From Edaphobacter dinghuensis (GTDB lineage: Bacteria > Acidobacteriota > Terriglobia > Terriglobales > Acidobacteriaceae), in NCBI RefSeq assembly GCF_014640335.1, contig NZ_BMGT01000003.1, forward strand, positions 1 through 64,000: a stretch of 64,000 nucleotides of DNA, given 5' to 3'. The notes beneath the pieces were generated by a model. That model made no database searches. It had not been told where the DNA came from and worked only from the letters and a program-made list of their open reading frames with translations. This document shows, piece by piece, positions 31,075-43,133 of the stretch (position 1 is the stretch's first letter; every line of letters starts with the position of its first letter). Made by a program: the position numbers and the translations under genes.

Positions 31075-32310
31075 TTAATCGGCAGCCATCACGATGGCTT
31101 TGTTGTCTGGGAGTGCGCGACCGCCTGCGCCGACCCATGTCTTCATCCATTGGCGAGAGACGACACGCAACAGGATGAGGATAAGGAACGCCATTGTGGC
31201 ATAGGCGATGAAGCCAGTGGAGTAGGAGCCGGTGTGTTGTTTGGACTGACCGAGGAGGTTGGGCAGGATGCCGCCACCGAGCGCGCCGACCTCTCCGATC
31301 ATGCCTCCGGCAACTGCCGTGGTGAGTGGCCAGCGAAGAGGAACGAGTTGGAAGGTAGCTCCGTTGCCCGCGCCGAGAGCGGCGAAGCAGAGCATGAAGA
31401 GCAGCGTGGTGATGAGCAGCGAGGGCGACGCGATGAGGCCGAAGAGTCCGGCGATAACGATGAGGAAGACGACAGAGAGTGTGGTGATTCCGCCGATGCG
31501 GTCGGCGAACCAGCCGCCCAGGACGCGGGTTGCACTGCCTGTGAGCGTGGCGAGGACGGTGAGGCTTCCGGCCTGAATTTTAGTTACGTGAAATTGCTTG
31601 ACGAAGAATGATGGCAGGAATGTGGCGAGGCCGATGAAGCCGCCGAAGGTGATGATGTAGACGAGATTGAAGGCCCAGCCGTCTTTTTCCCAGAGGCACT
31701 TGAGATGGTCGCTGAGACTCTGGTGCTCGATGTCTGGTGGCTCTTTGGCGAAGACGATCATGACGATGAGGGGGAGCAGCATCATCGCCGCGGCGAAGCC
31801 GTAGACGTGCTGCCAGCCGTAGTGGGTGGCGAGGCGCGGAGCGAAGAGTGCGGCCACGGCGGTGCCGCTGTTGCCTGCTCCGGCGATGCCCATAGCGAGA
31901 CCTTTGTATTGCTTGGGGAACCAGCCTGAGCCCAGCGATAGCGCAACGCCGAAGCTGGCTCCGGCGATGCCGAGCAGGACGCCCATGGCGAGGACGTCGT
32001 GGAAGGTCTTGACGAAGAAGAAGCCGTAGAGAAGGGCGATGACGATGGCCGACATCTCGATGATGGCTGCGTTTTTTCTGCCGATGTATTGCGAGACGAC
32101 GCCGAGCGGAAAGCGCATGAAGGCTCCGGCGAGCGTGGGGACGGAGACCATGAGGCCGACCTGGCCCTGGGAGAGATGGAACTGCTCGGAGATGAAGGGG
32201 CCCATGGCTCCGTTGAGAACCCAGACGGCGAAGCTGAAGTCGAAGTAGAGGAAGGCCGCGAGGAGAGTTGGTGGATGTCCGGACTTCATGAATGTTTTTA
32301 GATTTGCCAT
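31075..32310 (-). CDS. narK: Nitrate/nitrite transporter of the major facilitator superfamily
   Basis: 411 residues with 12 predicted transmembrane helices. The N-terminal helix FDFSFAVWVLNGAMGPFI and MRFPLGVVSQYIGRKNAA are NarK/NasA-type motifs, including the Arg residue that binds nitrate. The second nitrate signature region is GNGATFQLVPLRWP. It imports nitrate (or exports nitrite) across the inner membrane. It is the last gene of the assimilation operon. GGGGAG precedes the ATG. Confidence 0.93.
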   Translation of the reverse strand: MANLKTFMKSGHPPTLLAAFLYFDFSFAVWVLNGAMGPFISEQFHLSQGQVGLMVSVPTLAGAFMRFPLGVVSQYIGRKNAAIIEMSAIVIALLYGFFFVKTFHDVLAMGVLLGIAGASFGVALSLGSGWFPKQYKGLAMGIAGAGNSGTAVAALFAPRLATHYGWQHVYGFAAAMMLLPLIVMIVFAKEPPDIEHQSLSDHLKCLWEKDGWAFNLVYIITFGGFIGLATFLPSFFVKQFHVTKIQAGSLTVLATLTGSATRVLGGWFADRIGGITTLSVVFLIVIAGLFGLIASPSLLITTLLFMLCFAALGAGNGATFQLVPLRWPLTTAVAGGMIGEVGALGGGILPNLLGQSKQHTGSYSTGFIAYATMAFLILILLRVVSRQWMKTWVGAGGRALPDNKAIVMAAD

Positions 32311-32425: not shown

Positions 32426-34603
32426 TTACTTCAGTGTTTTGAAAAACTTTTCTACCCGGACAGCGCACTGCTTAAAGTTGGGTTCGCGCGAGATGGGATC
32501 GAAGGCGCCGAGGGTAACGAGGTTGGAGTTGGACTCCGCGAAGTGGAAGGGCATGAAGACCTGGCCGGGTGCGACGATGCCGGTGATGCGCAGTTCAACG
32601 TTGCGGACAGTGCTGCGGCGCGAGACGACGTTGACGCGATCGTGTGGGCGGAGTTCAAGCTTGGCCGCGTCGACGGGGTTCATCTCAAGCCATGCGTTGG
32701 GAACCATGGTGTTGAGCATCTCTACTTCGGCGGTCTTGGTGCGGGTGTGCCAGTGTTCGACGGTGCGGCCGGTGTTGAAGATGAGGTTGTACTCTTCGTT
32801 GGGCTGCTCGACGAAGGGTAAGCAAGGAACGCTATAGAGTTGGGCTTTGCCGGTGGCGGTGGGGAAGATGCCGTCGGCGTAGAGGCGCTCGCCGCCCCAC
32901 TGTGCGCCGCCTTCGTCTTCTAACTGCTGCCATGTGAATTTGCTGTAGTCGCACATGCGGCCTTCGGAGACTCGCTGCCATTCTTTGAAGGCGTCGTGAG
33001 TTGATGTCCAGCCGGGGAAGAGCTCTTCTTTCACGCCGAGCTTTTCGGCGAGGGCTATGAAGATGTCGAAGTCGGTGCGGGCGAGGCCGGGAGGTGTGAC
33101 GACGGGATTGACTTTGCTGACGCGGCGTTCGGAGTTGGTGTAAGTGCCTTCTTTTTCTCCCCAGATGGCGGCAGGTAGAACGAGGTGTGCGAACTCGCTG
33201 GTGGGTGTGGGGTGGAAGCCGTCTTGCACGACGAGGAAGTCGACGCTCTCGAGGGCTTGCTTGAGGAGAGGATAGTTGGGAAAAGAGACGGCGGGGTTGG
33301 TGGCGATGAACCAGAGGGCTTTGACTTTTCCAGCGACGGCGGCTTCGATGATGTCAGGATAGGCAAGGCCGCGTGATGTGGGGATGCGGGTGGCGTCGAT
33401 GTTCCAGATGCCGGCGAGCTCTTCGCGGTCGTGTGCCTTCTCGAATTTGCGGTAGCCCGGAAGGGCCGAGGTGAAGCTGCTCTCGCGGCTGCCCATGGCG
33501 TTGCATTGGCCGGTGATGGAGAAGGGTGCGGCTCCGGCGCGACCGATGTTGCCTGTGATGAGCGCGAGGTTGTTGATGGCGGTGACGGTGGCTGCGCCTT
33601 GCGTGGAGTGGTTGACGCCCATGGTCCAGCCGATGAAGGCGGCTTTTGCTTTGCCGTAGAGGTGAGCGGTGCTGAGGATGCTTTCTTCGCTGAGGCCGGT
33701 GACTTCGGCGACGTGTTGCGGCGTGAAGTCGGCGACGAAGGCGGTGAGTTCTTCGAAGCCTGTGGTGTGCTGGTCGATGTAGTCGCGGTTGATGAGGCCG
33801 TCGCGGATGAGAATGTGTGCGATGCCGTTGAGGAGAGCGATGTCGCCGCGTGGCTTGATGGGGAGATGAATGTCGGCCATCATGGCGGTTTTTGTGACGC
33901 GTGGGTCGACGACGATGACGGTGGAGTTGGCGTTGCGTTGGCGATTGCGTTCGAGGCGCTGGCAGAGGATGGGGTGGTTGTCGGCGATGTTGGCGCCGAT
34001 GAGCAGGATGAGGTCGGCGGTCTCCATGTCGGCGTAGGAACCGGGTGGGCCGTCGCTGCCGAAGGTGAGCTTGTAACCGGAGACGGCGGAGGCCATGCAG
34101 AGTGTGGTGTTGCCATCGTAGTTGCGGCTGCCGAAGCCTAGCTGCACGAGCTTGCCGAGAGTGTAGAACTCTTCGGTGACGAGCTGGCCGGTGCTGATGA
34201 CGCCGAGGGAGTCGTTGCCGTATTTCTGCTGGACGGCGGAGATCTTTTCGATCATGACGGTGAGAGCTTCTTCCCAGGAGACGGGAACGAGCTTGCCGTC
34301 TTTGCGCAGGAGCGGCTGTTTGGCGCGGCCGGGGGCGTCGAGGATGTGGTGCTCGCTAAGGCCCTTGGGGCAGAGCTTGCCGCAGTTGACGGGGTGATCG
34401 GGATTGCCGCGGACGGTGACGGCTTTATTGTCGCGAACACCGACGACGATGCCGCAGCCGACAGAGCAGTAGCCGCAGGTGGTTTTGATCCACTTGTCGG
34501 CGACGCGACTGGAGGAGATGTGGCCGACGCGTGGGTCGCGCTGGAAGGTGTACTTGGATTGGAGGGTGTCGATGCCGAGGGCTCGGCGGATTCGCTTCAA
34601 CAT
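32426..34603 (-). CDS. Assimilatory nitrate reductase catalytic subunit (molybdopterin, NasC/NarB type)
   Basis: 725 residues. The N-terminal 4Fe-4S site is CGYCSVGCGIVVG with a fourth Cys in LCPKGLSEH. The Mo-bis-MGD oxidoreductase domain follows, with TGQCNAMGSRESS and the C-terminal dinucleotide-binding domain (GRTVEHWHTRTKTAEV). It reduces nitrate to nitrite. No flavin or [2Fe-2S] C-terminal domain is present, so electrons must come from a partner, most likely the DmsBC-like fusion whose stop overlaps this start by one base. Confidence 0.93.
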   Translation of the reverse strand: MLKRIRRALGIDTLQSKYTFQRDPRVGHISSSRVADKWIKTTCGYCSVGCGIVVGVRDNKAVTVRGNPDHPVNCGKLCPKGLSEHHILDAPGRAKQPLLRKDGKLVPVSWEEALTVMIEKISAVQQKYGNDSLGVISTGQLVTEEFYTLGKLVQLGFGSRNYDGNTTLCMASAVSGYKLTFGSDGPPGSYADMETADLILLIGANIADNHPILCQRLERNRQRNANSTVIVVDPRVTKTAMMADIHLPIKPRGDIALLNGIAHILIRDGLINRDYIDQHTTGFEELTAFVADFTPQHVAEVTGLSEESILSTAHLYGKAKAAFIGWTMGVNHSTQGAATVTAINNLALITGNIGRAGAAPFSITGQCNAMGSRESSFTSALPGYRKFEKAHDREELAGIWNIDATRIPTSRGLAYPDIIEAAVAGKVKALWFIATNPAVSFPNYPLLKQALESVDFLVVQDGFHPTPTSEFAHLVLPAAIWGEKEGTYTNSERRVSKVNPVVTPPGLARTDFDIFIALAEKLGVKEELFPGWTSTHDAFKEWQRVSEGRMCDYSKFTWQQLEDEGGAQWGGERLYADGIFPTATGKAQLYSVPCLPFVEQPNEEYNLIFNTGRTVEHWHTRTKTAEVEMLNTMVPNAWLEMNPVDAAKLELRPHDRVNVVSRRSTVRNVELRITGIVAPGQVFMPFHFAESNSNLVTLGAFDPISREPNFKQCAVRVEKFFKTLK

Positions 34604-36249
34604 TAGTGTGAGCCTCCGCGAGTGAAGGTGAGCGCCATGTTGAGCGGAACGACGGAGACGAAGAAGAGGTAGCGGGCGATGAGGACCGCGGCGAAGGTAG
34701 CGACGGTAGCGAAGACGAAGGCTCCGCAGAAGGAGAGAACGCTTGCGGCTGCGGCGAGAGCGAAGGTGACGATGACCGCAGAGCGAAAATTTTGCGTGCC
34801 GAGGAGTTCGGCGGTGGCTCGCTCCTCAAAGAGTCTGGAGCGGTTGAGGCGGATGAGGCGGATGGCGTGGTTGGTCATCCACGGAATCGCTGCGATAGCT
34901 GTGAGCCACGCGGGAAAGGTATTGATGGTTTGCAGGTGGAGTGGATGCAGTAGCGAAATGCGGTTGAGAGTTTTAATGATCCAGTTAAGTGTGACTGGAA
35001 GCGTTGTACCAATGAGCAGGCTGCTGAGGATAAAGTCGATGGGCGTATGAATCATGTTCCACGCGGGACGTGCGGGAACGAGATAGATGAAGGCACTGGC
35101 GATGGTGCCTGCGACGCCGAAGAGGACGGCTGTCCAGCCGATGGCTGTGAGTAATTGTGTGGCAAACAGGAACGTTTGTATGTGCTGCAACAATGAGCTG
35201 TGCAGGATCGCTGCGATGGATGGCGTGAACAGCCATGTGGTGAAGGTGAAGGTTGCAATCGCGCCGAAGAAGAGGCCGAAGAGGAGGACCTCGCGGCTGA
35301 GCCAGGAGCGGTGCCACATCTTTAGCGCTCGCCATGCGTAGGCGGGACGGCCGAGGTGGAAGACGGAGATGTTGAGCGCGATGCTGGTGATGGCGAGCAG
35401 GATGGTGAGCAGCATCGGTTGCGCTGCCCGGAAGAGCAGAGCAAAGATGAGCGAACCGGTGACGGACTGAATGAGCGTCGTCATAAAGACGAGCGAGAGA
35501 TGAGCGTGTTCAGGCTGGATGCGGCCAATGTCGACGCGCTCGAGCTTTGCTGTGGTGTCAGGTGGGAGCGTGATGCGCGTGGTGGAGATGGTGTGTCCGG
35601 CAGCGGGCATGCCGGGAGATTCGGCGGCAGCATAATCGATGCGCCATGCTGTGGTGTCGACGATCTCGATCTCGATGGCGGCTTCGGGGCAGGAGTTGAC
35701 GCAAGCTGGTTCGCGTCCGTCGGTGAGACGACCGTGGCACATGTCGCATTTGCCTACGACGCCACGCTCCGGATTGAACTGCGGCACGGAGTAAGGGCAG
35801 TTCCACACGCAGTATTGGCAGCCGATGCAGGCCGTCGCGGAGTGAAGGACGATGCCGGTGACGGGATCCTTCGTATAGGCCTCGACCGGGCAGCCTTTGA
35901 TGCACTCGGCGTTGAGGCAGTGGTTGCAGCCCATCGAGAGATAGTGGCGATGCGTGTCGGGGTAGGTGCCGCCCTCGATCTCGCCGATGCGGCGCCAGCG
36001 AATGTCGGCGGGGTTGCCGTTCTGCTCGTTGCAGGCGATCTCGCAGGAGCGGCAGCCGATGCACTTGGTCATGTCGAAGTGGAAGCGGTATTGTTCTCCG
36101 GCTTCGAGCGCGCGTGTGGGGATGAGCGATGTGACAACGGTTGCCGAGGAAGCCGCTGGTATGGAGGGCTGGCCGAGGTCGGCGAAGGTCATGCGCACGA
36201 TGGATTCGGCGGTGGCGGACTCTGCGAGTTCTTGTAGTGGTAGAGACAC
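34603..36249 (-). CDS. Fused DmsB-like ferredoxin and DmsC-like membrane anchor
   Basis: 548 residues from a GTG start with a strong AGGAGG. The N-terminal 220 residues contain four 4Fe-4S cysteine groups as in DmsB/NrfC (CIGCRSCEIAC, CNHCLNAECIKGC, CIGCQYCVWNC, CDMCHGR). The C-terminal 290 residues form eight or so transmembrane helices like the DmsC/NrfD anchor (VFHLGRPAYAWRALKMWHRSWLSREV). Such fusions pass quinol electrons to a molybdopterin partner. In the operon it sits between the nitrite reductase flavoprotein and the nitrate reductase. Confidence 0.88.
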   Translation of the reverse strand: MSLPLQELAESATAESIVRMTFADLGQPSIPAASSATVVTSLIPTRALEAGEQYRFHFDMTKCIGCRSCEIACNEQNGNPADIRWRRIGEIEGGTYPDTHRHYLSMGCNHCLNAECIKGCPVEAYTKDPVTGIVLHSATACIGCQYCVWNCPYSVPQFNPERGVVGKCDMCHGRLTDGREPACVNSCPEAAIEIEIVDTTAWRIDYAAAESPGMPAAGHTISTTRITLPPDTTAKLERVDIGRIQPEHAHLSLVFMTTLIQSVTGSLIFALLFRAAQPMLLTILLAITSIALNISVFHLGRPAYAWRALKMWHRSWLSREVLLFGLFFGAIATFTFTTWLFTPSIAAILHSSLLQHIQTFLFATQLLTAIGWTAVLFGVAGTIASAFIYLVPARPAWNMIHTPIDFILSSLLIGTTLPVTLNWIIKTLNRISLLHPLHLQTINTFPAWLTAIAAIPWMTNHAIRLIRLNRSRLFEERATAELLGTQNFRSAVIVTFALAAAASVLSFCGAFVFATVATFAAVLIARYLFFVSVVPLNMALTFTRGGSH

Positions 36250-36300: not shown

Positions 36301-38112
36301 TTAGTAGACGTCGCGGTGGTAGCGGTGATCGTCTTTCAATGTCTGCACATATTCGGCTGCGGCCTCTGCGTCGAGGTTGCCCTGTTTGGCGACGATGCTG
36401 TGAAGTGTGGCATCGACGTCTTTGGCCATGCGGGCTGCGTCACCGCAGACGTAGATGCTGGCTCCATCCTGCAGCCATGACCAGAAGCGAGGAGCTTGCT
36501 CGAGCATCTTGTCCTGTACGTAGACCTTGTGGTCTTGGTCGCGGGAGAAGGCGAGATCGAGGTGAGTGAGGTGTTTGTCGCTGAGCATGGACTCAAGCTC
36601 ATCGCGGTAGAGAAAGTCGGTAGCGGCGCTGCGCTCGCCGAAGAAGAGCCAGTTTTTTCCGGTGGCGGAGAGCGCGCGGCGCTGGTGCAGAAAAGCGCGG
36701 AACGGTGCGATTCCAGTGCCGGGGCCAATCATAATGATGGGCGCGTCGGACTGTTGAGGCAGGCGAAATTTTTTGTTTGGCTGTATGTAGATGGCGCGCC
36801 GTTCGCCTGTGTTGGTGCGGTCGGCGAGCAGGGTGGAGCAGACGCCGCCGCGCTCGCGATTGTGAGAGCGATAGCGAACGACGGCCACCGTGGTGTGGAT
36901 TTCACCAGCATGCGCATAGGGACTCGACGAGATGGAGTAGAGGCGTGGCGCGAGCTTGGGAAGCATAGCGACGAGGTCCGCGGGGTTGTGCAGGACGCCG
37001 GGGTAGTCGTGAAGAAGATCGATCAGGCCGCGGTCATAGGTATATTTTTCGAGGTGTGCCTGCTGCTCGGGAACGAGCAGGCCGAAGAGCGGCTTGCAGT
37101 TGCCGATGGTGGCGTAGGCCTCGATCATCTTGCGCGTGAGGCGAGTGATCTGGAGGTGATTGGTGAGTGCATCAATCAGTGTCGTGGTGCCGGACTTAGG
37201 AAGCTGTACCGGGGCCTGGGGGCTGAAGTTCAGCATGGTGATAATGTCATCGACGAGTTGATCATCATTTTGCGGAACGACGCCGCATGCATCTCCGGCC
37301 TCGTACTTGAGGTTTGAGTCGGCGATGGAGAAGGCCATGTGCATGGTGAGTTTGCTTGAGACTTCGCGAGTGAGCGGATGTTTGTCTACCAGAGGCGCGA
37401 GGAATGGGTTCTCGCGCGTGTAGGCGGAGGTGCTGGTTTCGCTCGAGATGGTCTTTGGTGTTGGTGCGATGATTTTTGCTGAAGGCGATGGCGTGTTTTT
37501 GGCCGGGCGTGTGGAGACGATGGATTCGAGGCGGGAGTAGAGTCCCTGCTTCCAGCTTGTGAAGGCATCATCGAGATCGACATCGCAATCGACACGGTCG
37601 TGAAGGCGGACGGCTCCGAGCGAGTCGAGTTTGTTGTCGAGGTCGATGCCGAATTTGCAGAAGTGCTCGTAGTGCGAATCGCCGAGGGCGAGCACAGCGT
37701 AGGAGAGATCCTGATAGCGAGGGAAGTGCTCGATGCAGAGGCTTTCGTAGAAAGGCTTGACTGCATCGGGCGCGTCGCCGTCGCCATAGGTGCTGGCGAT
37801 GAGGATGGCGTAGCGCTCTTCGGCGAGCGCGGCGGGCGTGTAGCCTTCGAGCGAGATGAGCGAGGCAATGTGACCTTTAGATTTGAGGTCTTTCGCGACT
37901 TTGCGTGCGAGGCCTTCGGCTGTGCCGGACTGCGAGGCATAGAGGACTGCGATCTTCAAGGACAGCGGCGCCTCTGTGGCGATGGCGGGCTGCGCTGAAG
38001 AGAAGATTCCAGCGAGGAAGCCGTTGAGCCATGCGCGCTGATCGTCATTGAAAGGCGCGTTGTCAGGGATATAGGGTACGAGGGTCAAGGGGCTGGCGGA
38101 TTGCGTTGTCAT
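36301..38112 (-). CDS. CysJ-like NADPH flavoprotein (sulfite/nitrite reductase alpha)
   Basis: 603 residues from the ATG at 38112, which overlaps the upstream stop in ATGA. The open frame runs further upstream but lies inside the reductase gene, so that extension is rejected. Domains in order: flavodoxin (AVLYASQSGTAEGLARKV, STYGDGDAPD), FAD-binding with RLYSISSSPY and GGVCSTLLA, and NADPH-binding (MIGPGTGIAPFRAFLHQR... YVCGDAARMAKDV), ending HRDVY as CysJ does. It would supply NADPH electrons to the siroheme protein. Confidence 0.92.
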   Translation of the reverse strand: MTTQSASPLTLVPYIPDNAPFNDDQRAWLNGFLAGIFSSAQPAIATEAPLSLKIAVLYASQSGTAEGLARKVAKDLKSKGHIASLISLEGYTPAALAEERYAILIASTYGDGDAPDAVKPFYESLCIEHFPRYQDLSYAVLALGDSHYEHFCKFGIDLDNKLDSLGAVRLHDRVDCDVDLDDAFTSWKQGLYSRLESIVSTRPAKNTPSPSAKIIAPTPKTISSETSTSAYTRENPFLAPLVDKHPLTREVSSKLTMHMAFSIADSNLKYEAGDACGVVPQNDDQLVDDIITMLNFSPQAPVQLPKSGTTTLIDALTNHLQITRLTRKMIEAYATIGNCKPLFGLLVPEQQAHLEKYTYDRGLIDLLHDYPGVLHNPADLVAMLPKLAPRLYSISSSPYAHAGEIHTTVAVVRYRSHNRERGGVCSTLLADRTNTGERRAIYIQPNKKFRLPQQSDAPIIMIGPGTGIAPFRAFLHQRRALSATGKNWLFFGERSAATDFLYRDELESMLSDKHLTHLDLAFSRDQDHKVYVQDKMLEQAPRFWSWLQDGASIYVCGDAARMAKDVDATLHSIVAKQGNLDAEAAAEYVQTLKDDHRYHRDVY

Positions 38113-39902
38113 ACGAGCTCCTGGGTTGCGCAGAACGATTGCAGTTCGGTGATGGAATGACGGCGCGTGAAGTCGAGGAAGGATTCTTCCGGGTTGCGTT
38201 GCGTGGTGTAGGAGTGGAAGAGCTGCTCCATGACTGGCGGCAGGTCGCTGAACTTGATAGCAGAGATGAGCTCGCGGCCGATGCCTTGGTCTTGATCGGA
38301 GCCGCCGCCGATGACGACCTGGTAGCCTTCTTCGCCGCCAACTTTGACACCCATGAGACCGATGTCGCCGATGTAGTGTTGGGCGCAGGAGTGAGGGCAG
38401 CCGGTGACGTGCAGATTGACGGGCTGCATGATGTTGAAGCGGCTGTCGAGCATCGTGGCGAGTGCGACGGCGTGCGACTTGGTATCGCTGGCGGCGAAGC
38501 GGCATCCTTTGTTGCCGGTGCAGGCTACAGTTCCGCTGAGGACGGTGCCTGCTTCGAAGGCGAGGCCTGCTGCGAGGATTGCTGTCTTTGCGGCTTCGAG
38601 CTTTGCCGTGGGGATGTTGGGGATGATGAGGTTCTGCCAGACGGTGAGGCGAAGATCGCCGGTGCCATAGGTCTCTGCGATGTTTGCCAAGGCGAGCATT
38701 TGATCGACGGGTAGGCGACCGACGGGAACAGCGACGCCAATGTAGTTGAGGTCGGGCTGCGATTGCGCGTGCACGCCGATGTGTCCGGCGCGGTCGATGG
38801 GTTTGCGCGGTTCGGAGGCAGACGCGGGAACGCGGATAAGAGGGAAGGCGAGAAGCTTCTCGGTCTTGCCGATGAATTTTTCGACGCCCCATTTGTCGAT
38901 GAGGTACTTGAGGCGCGCTTTCTTGCGGTCGGTGCGGTCGCCGTGCTCGGCGAAGACGCGGATCATGGCTGCGGCAACGGCGACGGTTTGGTCGGGGCGA
39001 AGGAGCAGGCCGCAGTCGGTGGCGAATTGCTTGTGGCCGGTGATGCCGCAGAGCAGCACGCGGAAGTAGATGCCGGCGGGGATACCGTGGCCTTCTTTGA
39101 TCTCGACGGCGACGAAGCCGATGTCGTTGGTGTCGGCGACGACGCTGATGGCGCCACCGTTGTCGAAGGCAACGTTGAACTTGCGTGGCAGGCCGTACAT
39201 ATCGCGCGAGTTGAGGATGTAGCGGTTGAGCGCGTCGGCGAGCGGCGCTACGTCATAGAGCTCGTGCGGGTCGATGCCGGTGATGGGGGATGCGGTGATG
39301 TTGCGAATATTGTCTGCGCCCGATCCGCGCGAGGTCATGCCGAGGTCCTGAATCTTCGAGAGGACGCGGACGATGTTTTTGGGCTGCAACTCGCGTATCT
39401 GGAGGTTGCTGCGCGTGGTGAGATCGGCGCGTCCTGAGCCCCAGTCGGCGGCCATCTGCGCGAGGCCGCGAAGCTGGTGCGAGCTGAGGATGCCGCCAGG
39501 AACGCGCATGCGGAGCATGAAGGAGTCCTGCGCGGGAGCGACGTAGAAGAGGCCGTGGAATTTGAAGCGGAAGAGATCATCCGGCGCAGGGGCCTTGTCT
39601 TCGTTGGCGTGTGCGACGAGCTTGTCCCAGATATCGAGCGCGTTCTCTTCCTGCTTCCAATGTTCTTCTTTGCAGAGGTCGGAGAGAGGCGTGCCGAACC
39701 ATGTGGGCTCGGCCTCTTCGGCAGCCTGGTTGACGAGGCCGGAGGCGGGATTGTTGGTGATCTGTCCGCCGATGGTGTGCCCGACGAAGGGCATGACGAC
39801 ACCGCGTTGCGCTACGCCGGCGAAGAAGCCTTGTAGATACTGCTGCTGCGCGAGGGAGAAGCCCGGCGTGTCGATCAAAGTGGTGGTGACTTGCGATTCC
39901 AT
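38109..39902 (-). CDS. Siroheme/4Fe-4S nitrite (or sulfite) reductase
   Basis: 597 residues. The siroheme/4Fe-4S ligands are C461 and C467 (CTGNKGC) and C502 and C506 (CPHSC). Two ferrite-reductase-like half domains are present, the first near GGILSSHQLRGLAQMA and RSNLQIRELQP. The RTTRSNLQ region keeps the substrate arginines. It reduces nitrite to ammonia with six electrons. Operon context favours nitrite over sulfite, but the CysJ-type partner leaves both possible. AAGGAG precedes the ATG. First gene of the operon, with a 600 bp structured region upstream. Confidence 0.9.
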   Translation of the reverse strand: MESQVTTTLIDTPGFSLAQQQYLQGFFAGVAQRGVVMPFVGHTIGGQITNNPASGLVNQAAEEAEPTWFGTPLSDLCKEEHWKQEENALDIWDKLVAHANEDKAPAPDDLFRFKFHGLFYVAPAQDSFMLRMRVPGGILSSHQLRGLAQMAADWGSGRADLTTRSNLQIRELQPKNIVRVLSKIQDLGMTSRGSGADNIRNITASPITGIDPHELYDVAPLADALNRYILNSRDMYGLPRKFNVAFDNGGAISVVADTNDIGFVAVEIKEGHGIPAGIYFRVLLCGITGHKQFATDCGLLLRPDQTVAVAAAMIRVFAEHGDRTDRKKARLKYLIDKWGVEKFIGKTEKLLAFPLIRVPASASEPRKPIDRAGHIGVHAQSQPDLNYIGVAVPVGRLPVDQMLALANIAETYGTGDLRLTVWQNLIIPNIPTAKLEAAKTAILAAGLAFEAGTVLSGTVACTGNKGCRFAASDTKSHAVALATMLDSRFNIMQPVNLHVTGCPHSCAQHYIGDIGLMGVKVGGEEGYQVVIGGGSDQDQGIGRELISAIKFSDLPPVMEQLFHSYTTQRNPEESFLDFTRRHSITELQSFCATQELV

Positions 39903-39990
39903 GCTGAATCTCCTTTACGGTCTTGCGACTGGTGCATGCCGGAAGATCCTGAAGCGCAATCTGGATTGGGTGCAGCCAGATGCGGGCCAG

Positions 39991-40025
39991 ATAAACATCG
40001 CGGTGAGATAACTCACAGTGCGATG
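39991..40025 (-). terminator. Terminator-like stem in the nitrite reductase leader
   Basis: Read on the minus strand: CATCGC, then GTGAG, loop TTAT, CTCAC, GCGATG, then TTTAT. A 6+5 bp stem about 90 bases before the reductase ATG. The trailing T-run is short. It could be the attenuator controlled by the upstream hexaloop hairpins. Confidence 0.45.
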
Positions 40026-40069
40026 GATTCAAGGCTCGTCAAGGAGCATGAAACGATGAATAAGAGGGG

Positions 40070-40131
40070 AGCCGGGACACAGCATGGTGCCGGGCTGAAC
40101 TTCTTCGGCCATCCAGGTCGGGCTGAATGGC
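40070..40131 (-). promoter_or_regulatory. Tandem hexaloop hairpins, candidate ANTAR RNA target
   Basis: Minus strand. Hairpin 1 (40131-40108): stem GCCATTCAG/CTGGATGGC, 9 bp with one G-U, loop CCCGAC. An 11-nt linker follows. Hairpin 2 (40096-40070): stem AGCC..GGCAC/GTGTC..GGCT with an internal loop, loop CATGCT. Both loops have six bases with G at position 4, as in ANTAR targets. Position 1 is C, not the usual A. Confidence 0.5.
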
Positions 40132-40148
40132 ATTCGATGAAATTGATA

Positions 40149-40224
40149 CTACTGCGAGCTTTGCGTGAGTGCAAGAGAAGTAACAGTGAATTACAAGCTG
40201 CAAACAAAGTTTGATGTGCAGTAG
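40149..40224 (-). other. Possible branched RNA structure at the start of the leader
   Basis: Closing stem CTACTGC/GCAGTAG (40149-40155 with 40218-40224) encloses three short hairpins: CAAAC AAA GTTTG (40201-40213), GTAA/TTAC (40180-40194) and TTGC/GCAA (40161-40174). It lies upstream of the hexaloop pair on the same transcript, if transcription starts beyond 40224. Confidence 0.35.
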
Positions 40225-40272
40225 AAGTTTTTGTTATACGGCCGCTCGTTTATTGTTCCGCCAGAGCTGCGA

Positions 40273-40291
40273 TGTTACAAAACTGGTAACA
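40273..40291. promoter_or_regulatory. Dyad TGTTAC-N7-GTAACA in the divergent nitrate promoter region
   Basis: A perfect 6-bp dyad in the gap between the minus-strand nitrate operon and the plus-strand barrel gene. It has the size of a site for a dimeric regulator such as a Crp/Fnr-type protein. The rest of 40292-40508 shows no gene. Confidence 0.4.
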
Positions 40292-40508
40292 GCTCCCACA
40301 GCTCTAATCGCTCCGTGACACCTTGATGTGTCGATTATCCCGATTCGGTGGGACACTTCTGCTCTACGCCTGAGCAAACAACACTAAATTCCCGCGTCAA
40401 GCCACGACTATCGAGCCGGACGCATTTCTGTCTCTATGGCCGCGAGCCTCGACGAGGGCCACTCTTCATTCGAAGTACCCAACTGTGGCACTTACAAGGG
40501 GGAGCTCC

Positions 40509-41348
40509 ATGAAACGTGTTCTTTTAGCCGTTCTATTTTCCGTACAAGCGTTGTCTGGAGCACTGGCTGTTGCGCAGGATAGCTTCTTCACGAAGTGGCA
40601 GGATCGCGTGCGGAAGACGTCATCGCAGCAGCCGGGCTGGGCCGTGCCTGTTGTAACTCCGACGTCGGGCATTGTGCAACTGGCGCGTATCGATGTGCTG
40701 CATCAATGGACCTCGACCCACACTTCGACGTGGAACTATGGCAATAGCAAGGGTTTTAACTTCATTCCGTATTACAAGACAGAGGTGGATGTGAACCTGC
40801 CGCCATATATTGAGCACAACACTCCAAAGGCAATTGATGGGGCCGGGGACTTCTCGATGGTGGTGAAGTATCGTCCGTTTGCGGGAGGAGCGGAGCGAGG
40901 AAACTACTCGACTGCATTTCAGGTGGCAGCTACGGGCGCGACTGGAAGCTATAAAAACGGGACTGCGAGAACGACGATCAATCCGACATTGATTCTAGGT
41001 AAAGGGTTTGGACGGTTCGACGTGCAATCGAGCCTGGGAGGGACTTTGCCGGTAGGCTCGATTCACACGATTGGAAGGACGATTGTGTGGAACACGGTCG
41101 CGCAGTACCAGGTGGCGAAGATCTTCTGGCCTGAAGTGGAGGTGAATTCGAGCTTCTTCCATCTCGGGCCGAATAATGGGAAGAACCAGACATTTGTAAC
41201 TCCTGGACTGATGGTGAGCAAGATCAAGTTGGGTAAAGATCCCAGAAGCAGGCTGGGTTTGGTGCTTGGAGGAGGTATGCAGATTGCGACTTCTACTTAC
41301 CATTCCTATGACCACGGGCTTGTGCTTACCGGGCGAGTAACTTTCTAG
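40509..41348 (+). CDS. Outer-membrane protein, probable beta-barrel, unknown function
   Basis: 279 residues from the ATG at 40509 with a strong GGGGGAG upstream. The signal peptide MKRVLLAVLFSVQALSGALAVAQ is followed by alternating hydrophobic/aromatic strands (FNFIPYYKTEVDVNLPPYIE) and ends LVLTGRVTF, a C-terminal Phe typical of outer-membrane barrels. The family is not recognised. Placed between the nitrate operon and the HemD-GAF-ANTAR regulator, it could be a nitrate porin, but that is only context. Confidence 0.68.
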   Translation: MKRVLLAVLFSVQALSGALAVAQDSFFTKWQDRVRKTSSQQPGWAVPVVTPTSGIVQLARIDVLHQWTSTHTSTWNYGNSKGFNFIPYYKTEVDVNLPPYIEHNTPKAIDGAGDFSMVVKYRPFAGGAERGNYSTAFQVAATGATGSYKNGTARTTINPTLILGKGFGRFDVQSSLGGTLPVGSIHTIGRTIVWNTVAQYQVAKIFWPEVEVNSSFFHLGPNNGKNQTFVTPGLMVSKIKLGKDPRSRLGLVLGGGMQIATSTYHSYDHGLVLTGRVTF

Positions 41349-41468
41349 AACGGTCAGGGCGATTTTGTTGGCGGCTCTGTGATTGTTGATGCGGAGCCGC
41401 TAGAATTGTGTATAACAGGTGGCCAGCTCGAAGTAATTTTGTAATTGGAGACTGGCTGGGGGAGATGG

Positions 41469-43133
41469 ATGACTCACGCGAGCTTTGATGGATTGCGGGT
41501 TCTGTCGCTGGAATCGCGACGCGCAAAAGAGGTCGCGAAGCTGATACGCACCTATGGCGGCGAACCTTTTGTTGTGCCCGCGATGCGTGAAGCGCCGCTG
41601 GAATCGAACAAGCAGGCGCTGGAGTTTGCGGATGGGTTGCTGCAGGGGAAGTTCGATCTTGTTGTCTTTCTAACTGGCCTGGGGCTGCGCGCTCTGCTTG
41701 ACATTGCGCAGACGAAGTACAACCGTGAAGAGTTGGTTGAAGCGCTGCGATCGGTAAAGATCGGCGCGCGCGGACCGAAGCCTGCGGCTGCGTTGCGTGA
41801 GTTAAAAATTCCTGTGACGGTGACCGCGCCTGAGCCTAATACATGGCGCGAGATGATGCACGGGATGGAAGCGGAGTTTGGCGACAAGCTGGGCGAGATG
41901 CGGGTCGCGGTGCAGGAGTATGGTGCATCGAATCCTGAGTTTCTCTCTGAGCTTACGGTCAAGTGCGGTGAGGTGACCAAGGTTCCGGTGTATCAGTGGA
42001 CTCTGCCTGAAGATGTAGGGCCGCTGCGAGAGTCGGTTCTTGGCATTGCGAACGGCAGCGTGGACGTTGTGTTGTTTATGACGGCTGTACAGGTGATTCA
42101 TCTCTTTCAGGTAGCCGAAGAGATGGGCATGCGCGAAGAGCTGCGTGCAGGGCTGATATCGATGGTGGTGGTTTCGATTGGGCCAACGACATCGGAGGAG
42201 CTGACGCATTATGGAATCACTCCCGACTTTGAGCCGTCGCACCCGAAGATGGGATTTCTGGTGAACGAGGCGGCGCAGTACTCCGGCAAGATTCTGGAGC
42301 GGAAGCGCAGCGCGGGCAGTGCGATTGTGACGCCACATAAGAGCGACGACAAGCCGGCGGAGAAATCGAAGTCCGGCGTGCGTCGCGTTGCCGTTTCGAC
42401 GCCCACTATGGCGGGGTTTCGCGACGGACTTACCTCGATTGATTTTCTGCACGAGGTCAGCAGCAGGCTGGCATCGGCGGACTCGTTTCATGTGGTGCTG
42501 GGCAGCATCGTCGATTTTGTGACGACGGTGATTCCGTGCGACTCATGCTTCATCTATGTGATGGAGCACGAGAAGCTGGTGCTACGCGCATCGAAGAATC
42601 CTCATGCCGACCTTGTCGATCATCTGGGTATGTCGTTGGGGCAGGGAATCACGGGCTGGGTGGCGGAGCATCGCGAGCCGGTCGCGATTGCTTCGGGAGC
42701 ATCGAACGATCCGCGGTTCATCATGTTCCGCAATCTACCGGAAGACCACTTCGAAGCGATCTTGTGTACACCGATTCTTTGCGCGAGCAAGGTTGTCGGC
42801 GTCATCACGCTGCAGCACCAGATGAGCTATCAACATACGGCGAATGAGATCAGGCTGCTCTCGATGCTTGGTTTTCTAGTGGGCGCCGAGATTGAGCGCA
42901 CGCGCCTGGAGACGGAGAATCTGCAACTGGCCGGGCGGCTTGAGACGCGCAAGGCCGTCGATCGCGCGAAGGGCATTTTGCAGCGCGATCTGGGGATGAG
43001 CGAGGACGAGGCTTATCGGACGATGCAGAGGGAGAGCCGCCAGCGGCGCATCTCGATGCGTGAGATTGCAGATGCCATTGTGCTGGGCGATGATCTCAAA
43101 AAGGCACAGGCGGCTGACGGGGCTCGTGCTTAG
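41469..43133 (+). CDS. HemD-GAF-ANTAR fusion regulator
   Basis: 554 residues from the ATG at 41469 (GGGGGAG four bases upstream). Residues 1-265 match uroporphyrinogen-III synthase: FDGLRVLSLESRRAKEVAKL, VVFLTGLGLRALLD, SVDVVLFMTAVQVIHLF, SIGPTTSEELTHYGI. About 325-470 is a GAF domain (LGMSLGQGITGWVAEHREPV). About 487-540 is ANTAR (LETRKAVDRAKGILQRDLGM, SEDEAYRTMQRESR), an RNA-binding antiterminator domain. Known ANTAR proteins such as NasR act on nitrate operon leaders. Siroheme for nitrite reductase is made from uroporphyrinogen III, so the HemD part may sense or make this precursor. Catalytic competence is uncertain. Confidence 0.9.
   Translation: MTHASFDGLRVLSLESRRAKEVAKLIRTYGGEPFVVPAMREAPLESNKQALEFADGLLQGKFDLVVFLTGLGLRALLDIAQTKYNREELVEALRSVKIGARGPKPAAALRELKIPVTVTAPEPNTWREMMHGMEAEFGDKLGEMRVAVQEYGASNPEFLSELTVKCGEVTKVPVYQWTLPEDVGPLRESVLGIANGSVDVVLFMTAVQVIHLFQVAEEMGMREELRAGLISMVVVSIGPTTSEELTHYGITPDFEPSHPKMGFLVNEAAQYSGKILERKRSAGSAIVTPHKSDDKPAEKSKSGVRRVAVSTPTMAGFRDGLTSIDFLHEVSSRLASADSFHVVLGSIVDFVTTVIPCDSCFIYVMEHEKLVLRASKNPHADLVDHLGMSLGQGITGWVAEHREPVAIASGASNDPRFIMFRNLPEDHFEAILCTPILCASKVVGVITLQHQMSYQHTANEIRLLSMLGFLVGAEIERTRLETENLQLAGRLETRKAVDRAKGILQRDLGMSEDEAYRTMQRESRQRRISMREIADAIVLGDDLKKAQAADGARA

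Follow-up and report, generated by a model that had tools for sequence, protein, structure and literature searches.

Among ANTAR regulators, NasT has a REC-ANTAR architecture, the loop base A1 is important in the targets of EutV and NasR, and the substitution M172A abolishes binding by EutV. The loop base G4 is reported to be held in EutV by residues R142, K149, E160 and Y164 (PMC8934654), NasR is reported as proven to act by antitermination (PMC7496416), and an antitermination role is also ascribed to NasT (PMC6759348). Streptomyces NnaR reportedly has a HemD domain without synthase activity (PMC6277429, PMC11162112, citing Amin et al. 2012), and one of these accounts calls the domain's role unclear and suggests that it senses hydroxymethylbilane or uroporphyrinogen III (PMC11162112). 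A search of open-licence PMC for HemD or uroporphyrinogen combined with ANTAR found no related paper.

The 64,000-nucleotide stretch of DNA analyzed here (the window) encodes a protein that the original prediction had read as a fusion of HemD, GAF and ANTAR domains placed beside a nitrate assimilation operon. Both observations are confirmed, since HEM4, GAF and ANTAR each exceed the Pfam cut-off and a divergent nirA-cysJ-like-nasB-nasC-narK operon lies nearby:

41469..43133, + strand: HemD-GAF-ANTAR fusion coding sequence, 554 aa (open reading frame and domain profiles)
41529..42263, + strand: HEM4 (uroporphyrinogen-III synthase-like) domain (Pfam, tree, fold comparison)
42489..42893, + strand: GAF domain, residues 341-475 (Pfam)
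42924..43082, + strand: ANTAR domain (Pfam, EutV alignment)
38109..39902, - strand: nirA, siroheme-type nitrite reductase, the presumed target (profile matches)
36301..38112, - strand: CysJ-like flavodoxin reductase (open reading frame with approximate start, profiles)
34603..36249, - strand: Fe-S electron-transfer/membrane subunit, here named NasB (profile matches)
32426..34603, - strand: molybdopterin oxidoreductase resembling assimilatory nitrate reductases (here named NasC; its best NCBIfam models fall below cut-off)
31075..32310, - strand: MFS transporter, NarK-like from context (Pfam MFS_1)

The ANTAR homology is borne out by profile search (PF03861, 66.2 bits against a cut-off of 27.3). 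At E<=0.1, Pfam gave HEM4, GAF models and ANTAR only, so the fusion has no NIT domain; the winged-helix domain Trans_reg_C, present in the NnaR-type protein L203, is likewise absent. The NCBIfam model PRK07239 scores 130.3 bits, below a cut-off of 273 that is set for the whole protein. A search of the window's own genome, which the original prediction had called for, found one further hemD elsewhere and no second ANTAR gene. A 287-aa open reading frame (40485-41348, + strand), which has no Pfam or NCBIfam match above cut-off and by reading is perhaps an outer-membrane protein, is retained in several relatives, again placed between the fusion and nirA.

The named genome contigs of the best 80 of 128 relatives comprise 79 loci, nearly all titled Acidobacteriota, from each of which up to 10 kb on either side was fetched (some contigs are short). 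Among these best 80 of 128, nirA was divergent and upstream in 34 of 72 initial candidates and on the same strand and downstream in 12. The 72 became 68 intact in-frame fusions (68/79 loci) because L151 was rejected as two adjacent genes, HemD and GAF-ANTAR, and L136, L140 and L142 as broken by stops or a shift. The predicted linkage of this domain order to nirA and nas genes holds for most of them, in that 51/68 intact fusions from the best 80 of 128 relatives lie near nirA, nirB, nas or a CysJ-like fragment, L132 being the sole locus so classed through the CysJ-like fragment alone. The other 17/68 have no nitrate or nitrite genes nearby, which counts against the explanation favored below. 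Fusions away from nitrate genes include L084, L095, L097-L101, L103, L104, L106, L109 and L139; some are second copies beside a nitrate-linked one (KBS 146: L089, L139), and the conserved neighbors gave no hint of a function in the 19 candidate loci where the fusion has no nitrate genes nearby. Two acidobacterial-type fusion genes (L105, L107) stand on contigs titled Rhodanobacteraceae, which are probably misbinned.

A survey of 200 genomes of the family, in which kinship was ignored, found fusion and NirA together in 24, the fusion without NirA in 10, NirA without the fusion in none, and neither in 166. These counts rest on 34 genomes with a fusion and 24 with a high-scoring NirA (fragmented in G040), matches at 31-38% identity having been classed as sulfite reductases on identity alone. 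Two of the 24 fusion copies in NirA genomes are interrupted, one in two pieces (G101) and one with its ANTAR part in another frame (G017). NirB occurs in 8/200 genomes, where the HemD type is fused in three and a separate gene in five. Therefore, with kinship again ignored, all 32 NirA- or NirB-containing genomes of the 200 carry the HemD type (24/24 fused with NirA, 8/8 fused or separate with NirB); it also occurs in 17 further genomes without either enzyme. Where relatives encode the halves separately, the two genes span about 280 and 230 residues. In L042 a HEM4 gene lies behind a NIR_SIR-domain gene that is truncated at the contig end and a gene for a formate/nitrite transporter; a GAF-ANTAR gene stands directly behind nirB and a transporter in L239; and the adjacent unfused genes of L151 follow nasB-nasC-nirB. 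It follows from this gene order that each unfused half can accompany a nitrite reductase. The GAF-ANTAR half appears to have wider uses, since it is also encoded separately in many genomes that have neither NirA nor NirB.

In a midpoint-rooted tree of 53 HemD sequences (the human row is very long and L151 is labelled as fused), a branch with 100/100 support separates 18 housekeeping HemD proteins from a group comprising the fused and separate HemD type, NnaR, the Thermus synthase 3D8N and Deinococcus. The likeness to actinobacterial HemD-winged-helix proteins drawn in the original prediction is thus supported at the level of the HemD domain, NnaR being represented by three actinobacterial sequences whose winged helix was found by Pfam (L203) or by reading the translation (L204, L206). 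An NnaR encoded on a mycobacterial plasmid has a nitrate transporter on one side and a SirB-like gene on the other. Both Deinococcus regions examined have the gene order nirB-nirD-hemD, and nirD lies beneath the match in 7/7 Deinococcus records listed; on Deinococcus plasmids (L200, L207) the stand-alone NnaR-type HemD gene overlaps or follows nirD in nirBD operons. HemD genes from a Bacillus velezensis plasmid record (L201) and from Paenibacillus (L205) branch with the Thermus synthase; the annotated stretch of the former is without nitrite reductase and the latter carries no annotation.

Across 36 family-conserved HemD columns, 21 are identical in Thermus 3D8N, 17 in all three NnaR sequences and 8 in the housekeeping consensus, and the conserved motifs include TGxG, RGxK and one Tyr. 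The ligand cleft of the domain may be retained. The predicted structure has a HemD fold, with Thermus synthase entries as the best fold matches. Its GAF matches (to bilin, heme and PtsP domains) score equally and do not discriminate a ligand, and no ANTAR entry is among the 50 VIA-align matches listed. Based on the HemD type, the siroheme of the adjacent enzyme and the NnaR precedent, the domain is probably a sensor of a tetrapyrrole, for example uroporphyrinogen III or hydroxymethylbilane, and not a housekeeping enzyme.

A gapless alignment with EutV places the four G4-holding residues R142, K149, E160 and Y164 at R494, K501, E512 and Y516 of the fusion. EutV K143 and R175 are also kept and K147 is replaced by R, whereas R168, M172, N173 and R177 are replaced by Q, R, Q and S; the three loop contacts M172, N173 and R177 are therefore R524, Q525 and S529, and this SRQ form occurs in 12/15 C-termini compared. 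The retention of the G4-holding residues and the change of the other four fit a target with G4 kept and position 1 altered. As read from this alignment, loss of the plug residue M172 counts against a simple transfer of the EutV model.

Beyond the original prediction, a conserved hexaloop RNA element precedes nirA, nirB and nasB genes. An alignment of 16 nirA upstream regions contains a promoter-like TTGC...TAnnnT followed by a long leader, which in the window is ~240 nt and holds three hexaloop hairpins (P1-P3), each with G4:

40146..40174, - strand: TTGCAC-17 nt-TAGTAT, a promoter-like sequence preceding the nirA leader (by eye; TTGC and the T-rich hexamer are conserved in the alignment)
40108..40131, - strand: P1, 9-bp stem, hexaloop CCCGAC (G4)
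40076..40091, - strand: P2, stem GGCAC/GTGTC, hexaloop CATGCT (C1, G4)
40034..40047, - strand: P3, stem GCTC/GAGC, hexaloop CTTGAC (C1, G4)
40041..40050, - strand: anti-ribosome-site arm CATGCTCCTT, overlapping the 5' arm of P3 (complementarity)
39900..39915, - strand: nirA start region with Shine-Dalgarno AAGGAG and ATG start codon, partner of the CATGCTCCTT arm

A consensus promoter scan did not list the promoter-like sequence at 40146..40174, and Rfam matched only a tRNA in the window and nothing in 39850-41480 at E<=5. A strict scan for A1-G4 hexaloops in the 16 nirA upstream regions gave single sites, never two close together, and this pattern was abandoned once the alignment revealed C/U1-G4 loops. 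The 47 nirA leaders reduce to 44 non-redundant ones, 40 of which have a hexaloop hairpin of at least 5 pairs. When the most stable hexaloop of each was taken with the loop unconstrained, G4 occurred in 33/40, compared with a mean fraction of 0.24 (maximum 0.45) in shuffled leaders and 0.33 (maximum 0.55) in random windows of the same loci; the strongest bias at any position in loops of other sizes (5, 7 and 8 bases) was 13/24. The leaders thus contain the serial six-base G4 loops of ANTAR targets. Position 1, however, is C in 16, T in 16, A in 4 and G in 4 of the 40 leaders, so the A1 of known ANTAR targets is seldom found, and this counts against the favored explanation. In nasB leaders (L129, L138, L131), a second hairpin with a seven-base TCNGNAT-like loop and G4 was seen by eye upstream of P3.

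In an alignment (A2) of 21/47 nirA leaders, picked by eye since P2 and P3 were visible in them, P2 is paired in 85.7% of cells with two-sided changes in 4/5 pairs; P3 is 100% paired and its stem is nearly invariant, so it is without support from covariation. The covariation score over both helices is 0.165, against 0.090 for shuffled alignments and 0.130 for a one-column slide, a small margin over the latter. The P3 pattern is present in 37/47 nirA and 16/17 usable nasB leaders; the 10/47 nirA leaders that lack it in the pattern search count against the favored explanation. As a genome probe the P3 pattern alone is unspecific (4 matches, against 9 for a reversed-pattern control), and a P2-P3 model was therefore adopted in the form of a covariance model (R1) built from the 21 hand-chosen leaders, the window's included.

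In the window's own genome, R1 scores the nirA leader at 60.2 bits and the next site at 19.0. In the 200 genomes, some of which had supplied training rows, the 19 best matches (E<=4.7e-4) fall in nirA leaders in 16 cases and in nirB leaders in two (G138, G058), the remaining one being a site in G151 directly after a fusion that is followed only by a CysJ-like fragment; the next-ranked match (G090) is not at nitrate genes. R1 also picks nirB leaders in the NirA-less genomes G138, G058 and G067. On 51 non-training loci, R1 gave 26 matches at E<=0.02: 19 nirA, three nirB and two nasB leaders, one after nasC in L127, and one in L122 that is assigned by position only, with nirA presumed past the contig end. 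All came from nitrate loci (26/39), and none from the 12 fusion loci without nitrate genes, one of which (L142) carries a stop; one such locus (L097) has a match at E 0.45. The silence of R1 at this threshold in 13/39 nitrate loci counts against the favored explanation. In genomes with separate halves, a G4-hexaloop search found the P2 form with other stems, for example GGATAC[CRGGCC]GTATCC in L237 and L240. Two fusion-less genomes have R1 matches of 26-27 bits among transporter-like genes (G090:C178 and G163:C220; L181, L183), which are chance or another target. In L172 (G138), a possible short open reading frame with its own ribosome site was seen by eye between the RNA element and nirB.

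The arm that overlaps P3 is complementary to the ribosome site of its own leader more strongly than to those of other leaders. Pairing energies for own versus swapped partners are -10.89 vs -9.38 kcal/mol in 35 nirA leaders (3/20000 permutations as low) and -15.62 vs -14.43 kcal/mol in 16 nasB leaders (162/20000 as low); the test left out L113 and L114, which are near-copies of L111, and 29 thinned nirA leaders gave 2/20000. In a 10-nt scan, P3 is the only window with a ribosome-site match in nasB leaders. In nirA leaders the P2-P3 linker, 30 nt upstream, equals P3, and a window overlapping P3 also matches; P3 is therefore not a unique match there, which counts against the favored explanation. 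Ensemble folding predicts the arm on the ribosome site in 19/35 nirA and 14/16 nasB leaders, against 11% and 8% for control windows, and the mean probability of a closed P3 is 0.14. The window's leader is near balance, its preferred predicted fold depending on the stretch folded.

The reading that accounts best for these observations, and that is held to be somewhat probable, is that the fusion controls the operons for siroheme nitrite reductase and for nitrate reductase as a one-component ANTAR regulator, working as a translation switch under a HemD sensor. The ANTAR domain would bind the hexaloop hairpins P1-P3 in nirA, nirB or nasB leaders. Without bound protein, an anti-Shine-Dalgarno formed by the 5' arm of P3 would tend to pair with the ribosome-binding site; binding to the loops would hold P3 closed, leave the ribosome site free and turn translation on. 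This proposal is derived from the arm complementarity and the ensemble folds, which suggest that the regulator probably acts on translation. The NnaR-type HemD domain would be the sensor of a tetrapyrrole, with uroporphyrinogen III and hydroxymethylbilane as candidates, so that reductase would be made when the cofactor precursor is available, and the GAF domain may contribute a second input.

Alternatives exist for both the output and the input of this system. For the output, hairpin binding might instead prevent premature termination in the nirA leader, at Rho-dependent ends or at a terminator missed by the scan, as would be expected from the precedents of NasR and NasT, the length of the leaders and their several hexaloops. 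Such classical antitermination is considered rather unlikely, because terminator-like sites occur in 8/47 nirA leaders, while mononucleotide shuffling yields 6.2 on average, and none was found on the minus strand of 39850-41500, although the scan would miss Rho-dependent ends. The leaders thus show no sign of the intrinsic-terminator overlap of the firmicute/proteobacterial type of ANTAR target. The literal RNA antiterminator of the original prediction is therefore unsupported; the regulatory side of that prediction is strengthened, and its mode shifts from antitermination towards translation control. It is also conceivable that another protein, a small RNA or a small molecule binds the element and that the fusion is merely nearby, since loop position 1 deviates from the ANTAR rule. 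This is quite improbable, given that serial six-base G4 loops are an ANTAR signature, that the element precedes nirA, nirB and nasB alike, that no Rfam family fits the leader region, and that the genome search turned up no second ANTAR gene.

For the input, the HemD domain could have uroporphyrinogen-III synthase activity and add to the supply of siroheme precursor, which would make the protein a bifunctional enzyme and regulator. The resemblance to the Thermus enzyme (21/36 conserved columns and the best fold matches) is in keeping with this, as are the stand-alone members in the Deinococcus nirB-nirD-hemD order and behind the NIR and nitrite-transporter genes of L042, but the other hemD in the genome and the reported inactivity of the Streptomyces NnaR domain (PMC6277429, PMC11162112) make an active synthase doubtful. 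The real switch could also be the GAF domain, responding to nitrate, nitrite, the redox state or some other ligand, with HemD as a passive scaffold, as the place of GAF immediately before ANTAR and the existence of stand-alone GAF-ANTAR proteins, one right after the nirB and transporter genes of L239, would allow. A mere scaffold would leave unexplained why the HemD type is kept in 32/32 NirA/NirB genomes and why TGxG, RGxK and the Tyr are conserved, so a GAF switch of this kind is unlikely.

If translation control by the fusion is extended into a more specific proposal, these proteins would form a tetrapyrrole-sensing ANTAR family in which folding of C/U1-G4 hairpins unmasks the ribosome site as a translational ON switch, an RNA-level use of the NnaR-type HemD sensor; this version is put forward tentatively. 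An NnaR-type HemD domain is here combined with another output, in a different phylum and at genes of the same kind as those of NnaR, and the fusion makes cofactor sensing testable in harmless soil bacteria. The RNA element has named bases and, if it is bound, extends ANTAR recognition beyond A1-G4; if the direction of control is as proposed, it may represent an ANTAR-driven translational ON switch. Tying reductase synthesis to a siroheme precursor would, if true, be a simple logic, and we know of no nitrate regulator for which it has been described.

Several known systems share parts of this arrangement. The nearest solved structure by sequence and fold is the uroporphyrinogen-III synthase of Thermus thermophilus (PDB 3D8N and related entries), which lies on the same side of the tree and shares conserved residues with the HemD domain of the fusion, but is without an ANTAR or GAF domain. 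NnaR, the actinobacterial nitrate/nitrite regulator that combines HemD with an OmpR-type winged helix, shares the HEM4 domain on that same tree side (PMC6277429, PMC11162112) and, like the fusion, is a one-component protein found at nitrate or nitrite genes in genomes with another hemD. The fusion differs in having an RNA-directed ANTAR output with a GAF domain between, where NnaR has a DNA-binding winged helix, and in occurring in Acidobacteria with an RNA element in place of the promoter sites of NnaR. NasR of Klebsiella oxytoca (NIT-ANTAR) is, like the fusion, a one-component regulator of nitrate assimilation with a hexaloop leader (PMC3369931, PMC7496416), whereas the fusion has no NIT domain, its loops are mostly C/U1-G4 and not A1-G4, terminators are not enriched in its leaders, and the ribosome site has a complementary arm. 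EutV and NasT (REC-ANTAR) share with it an ANTAR domain with the G4-holding residues and several hexaloops; unlike them, the fusion has no receiver domain, and M172 and N173 of EutV are replaced by R and Q. A coupling of an ANTAR RNA to translation is also known from Actinobacteria, where some such RNAs overlap the ribosome site (PMC8164766); binding there is proposed to repress by covering that site, whereas at this locus the folding of P3 would uncover it.
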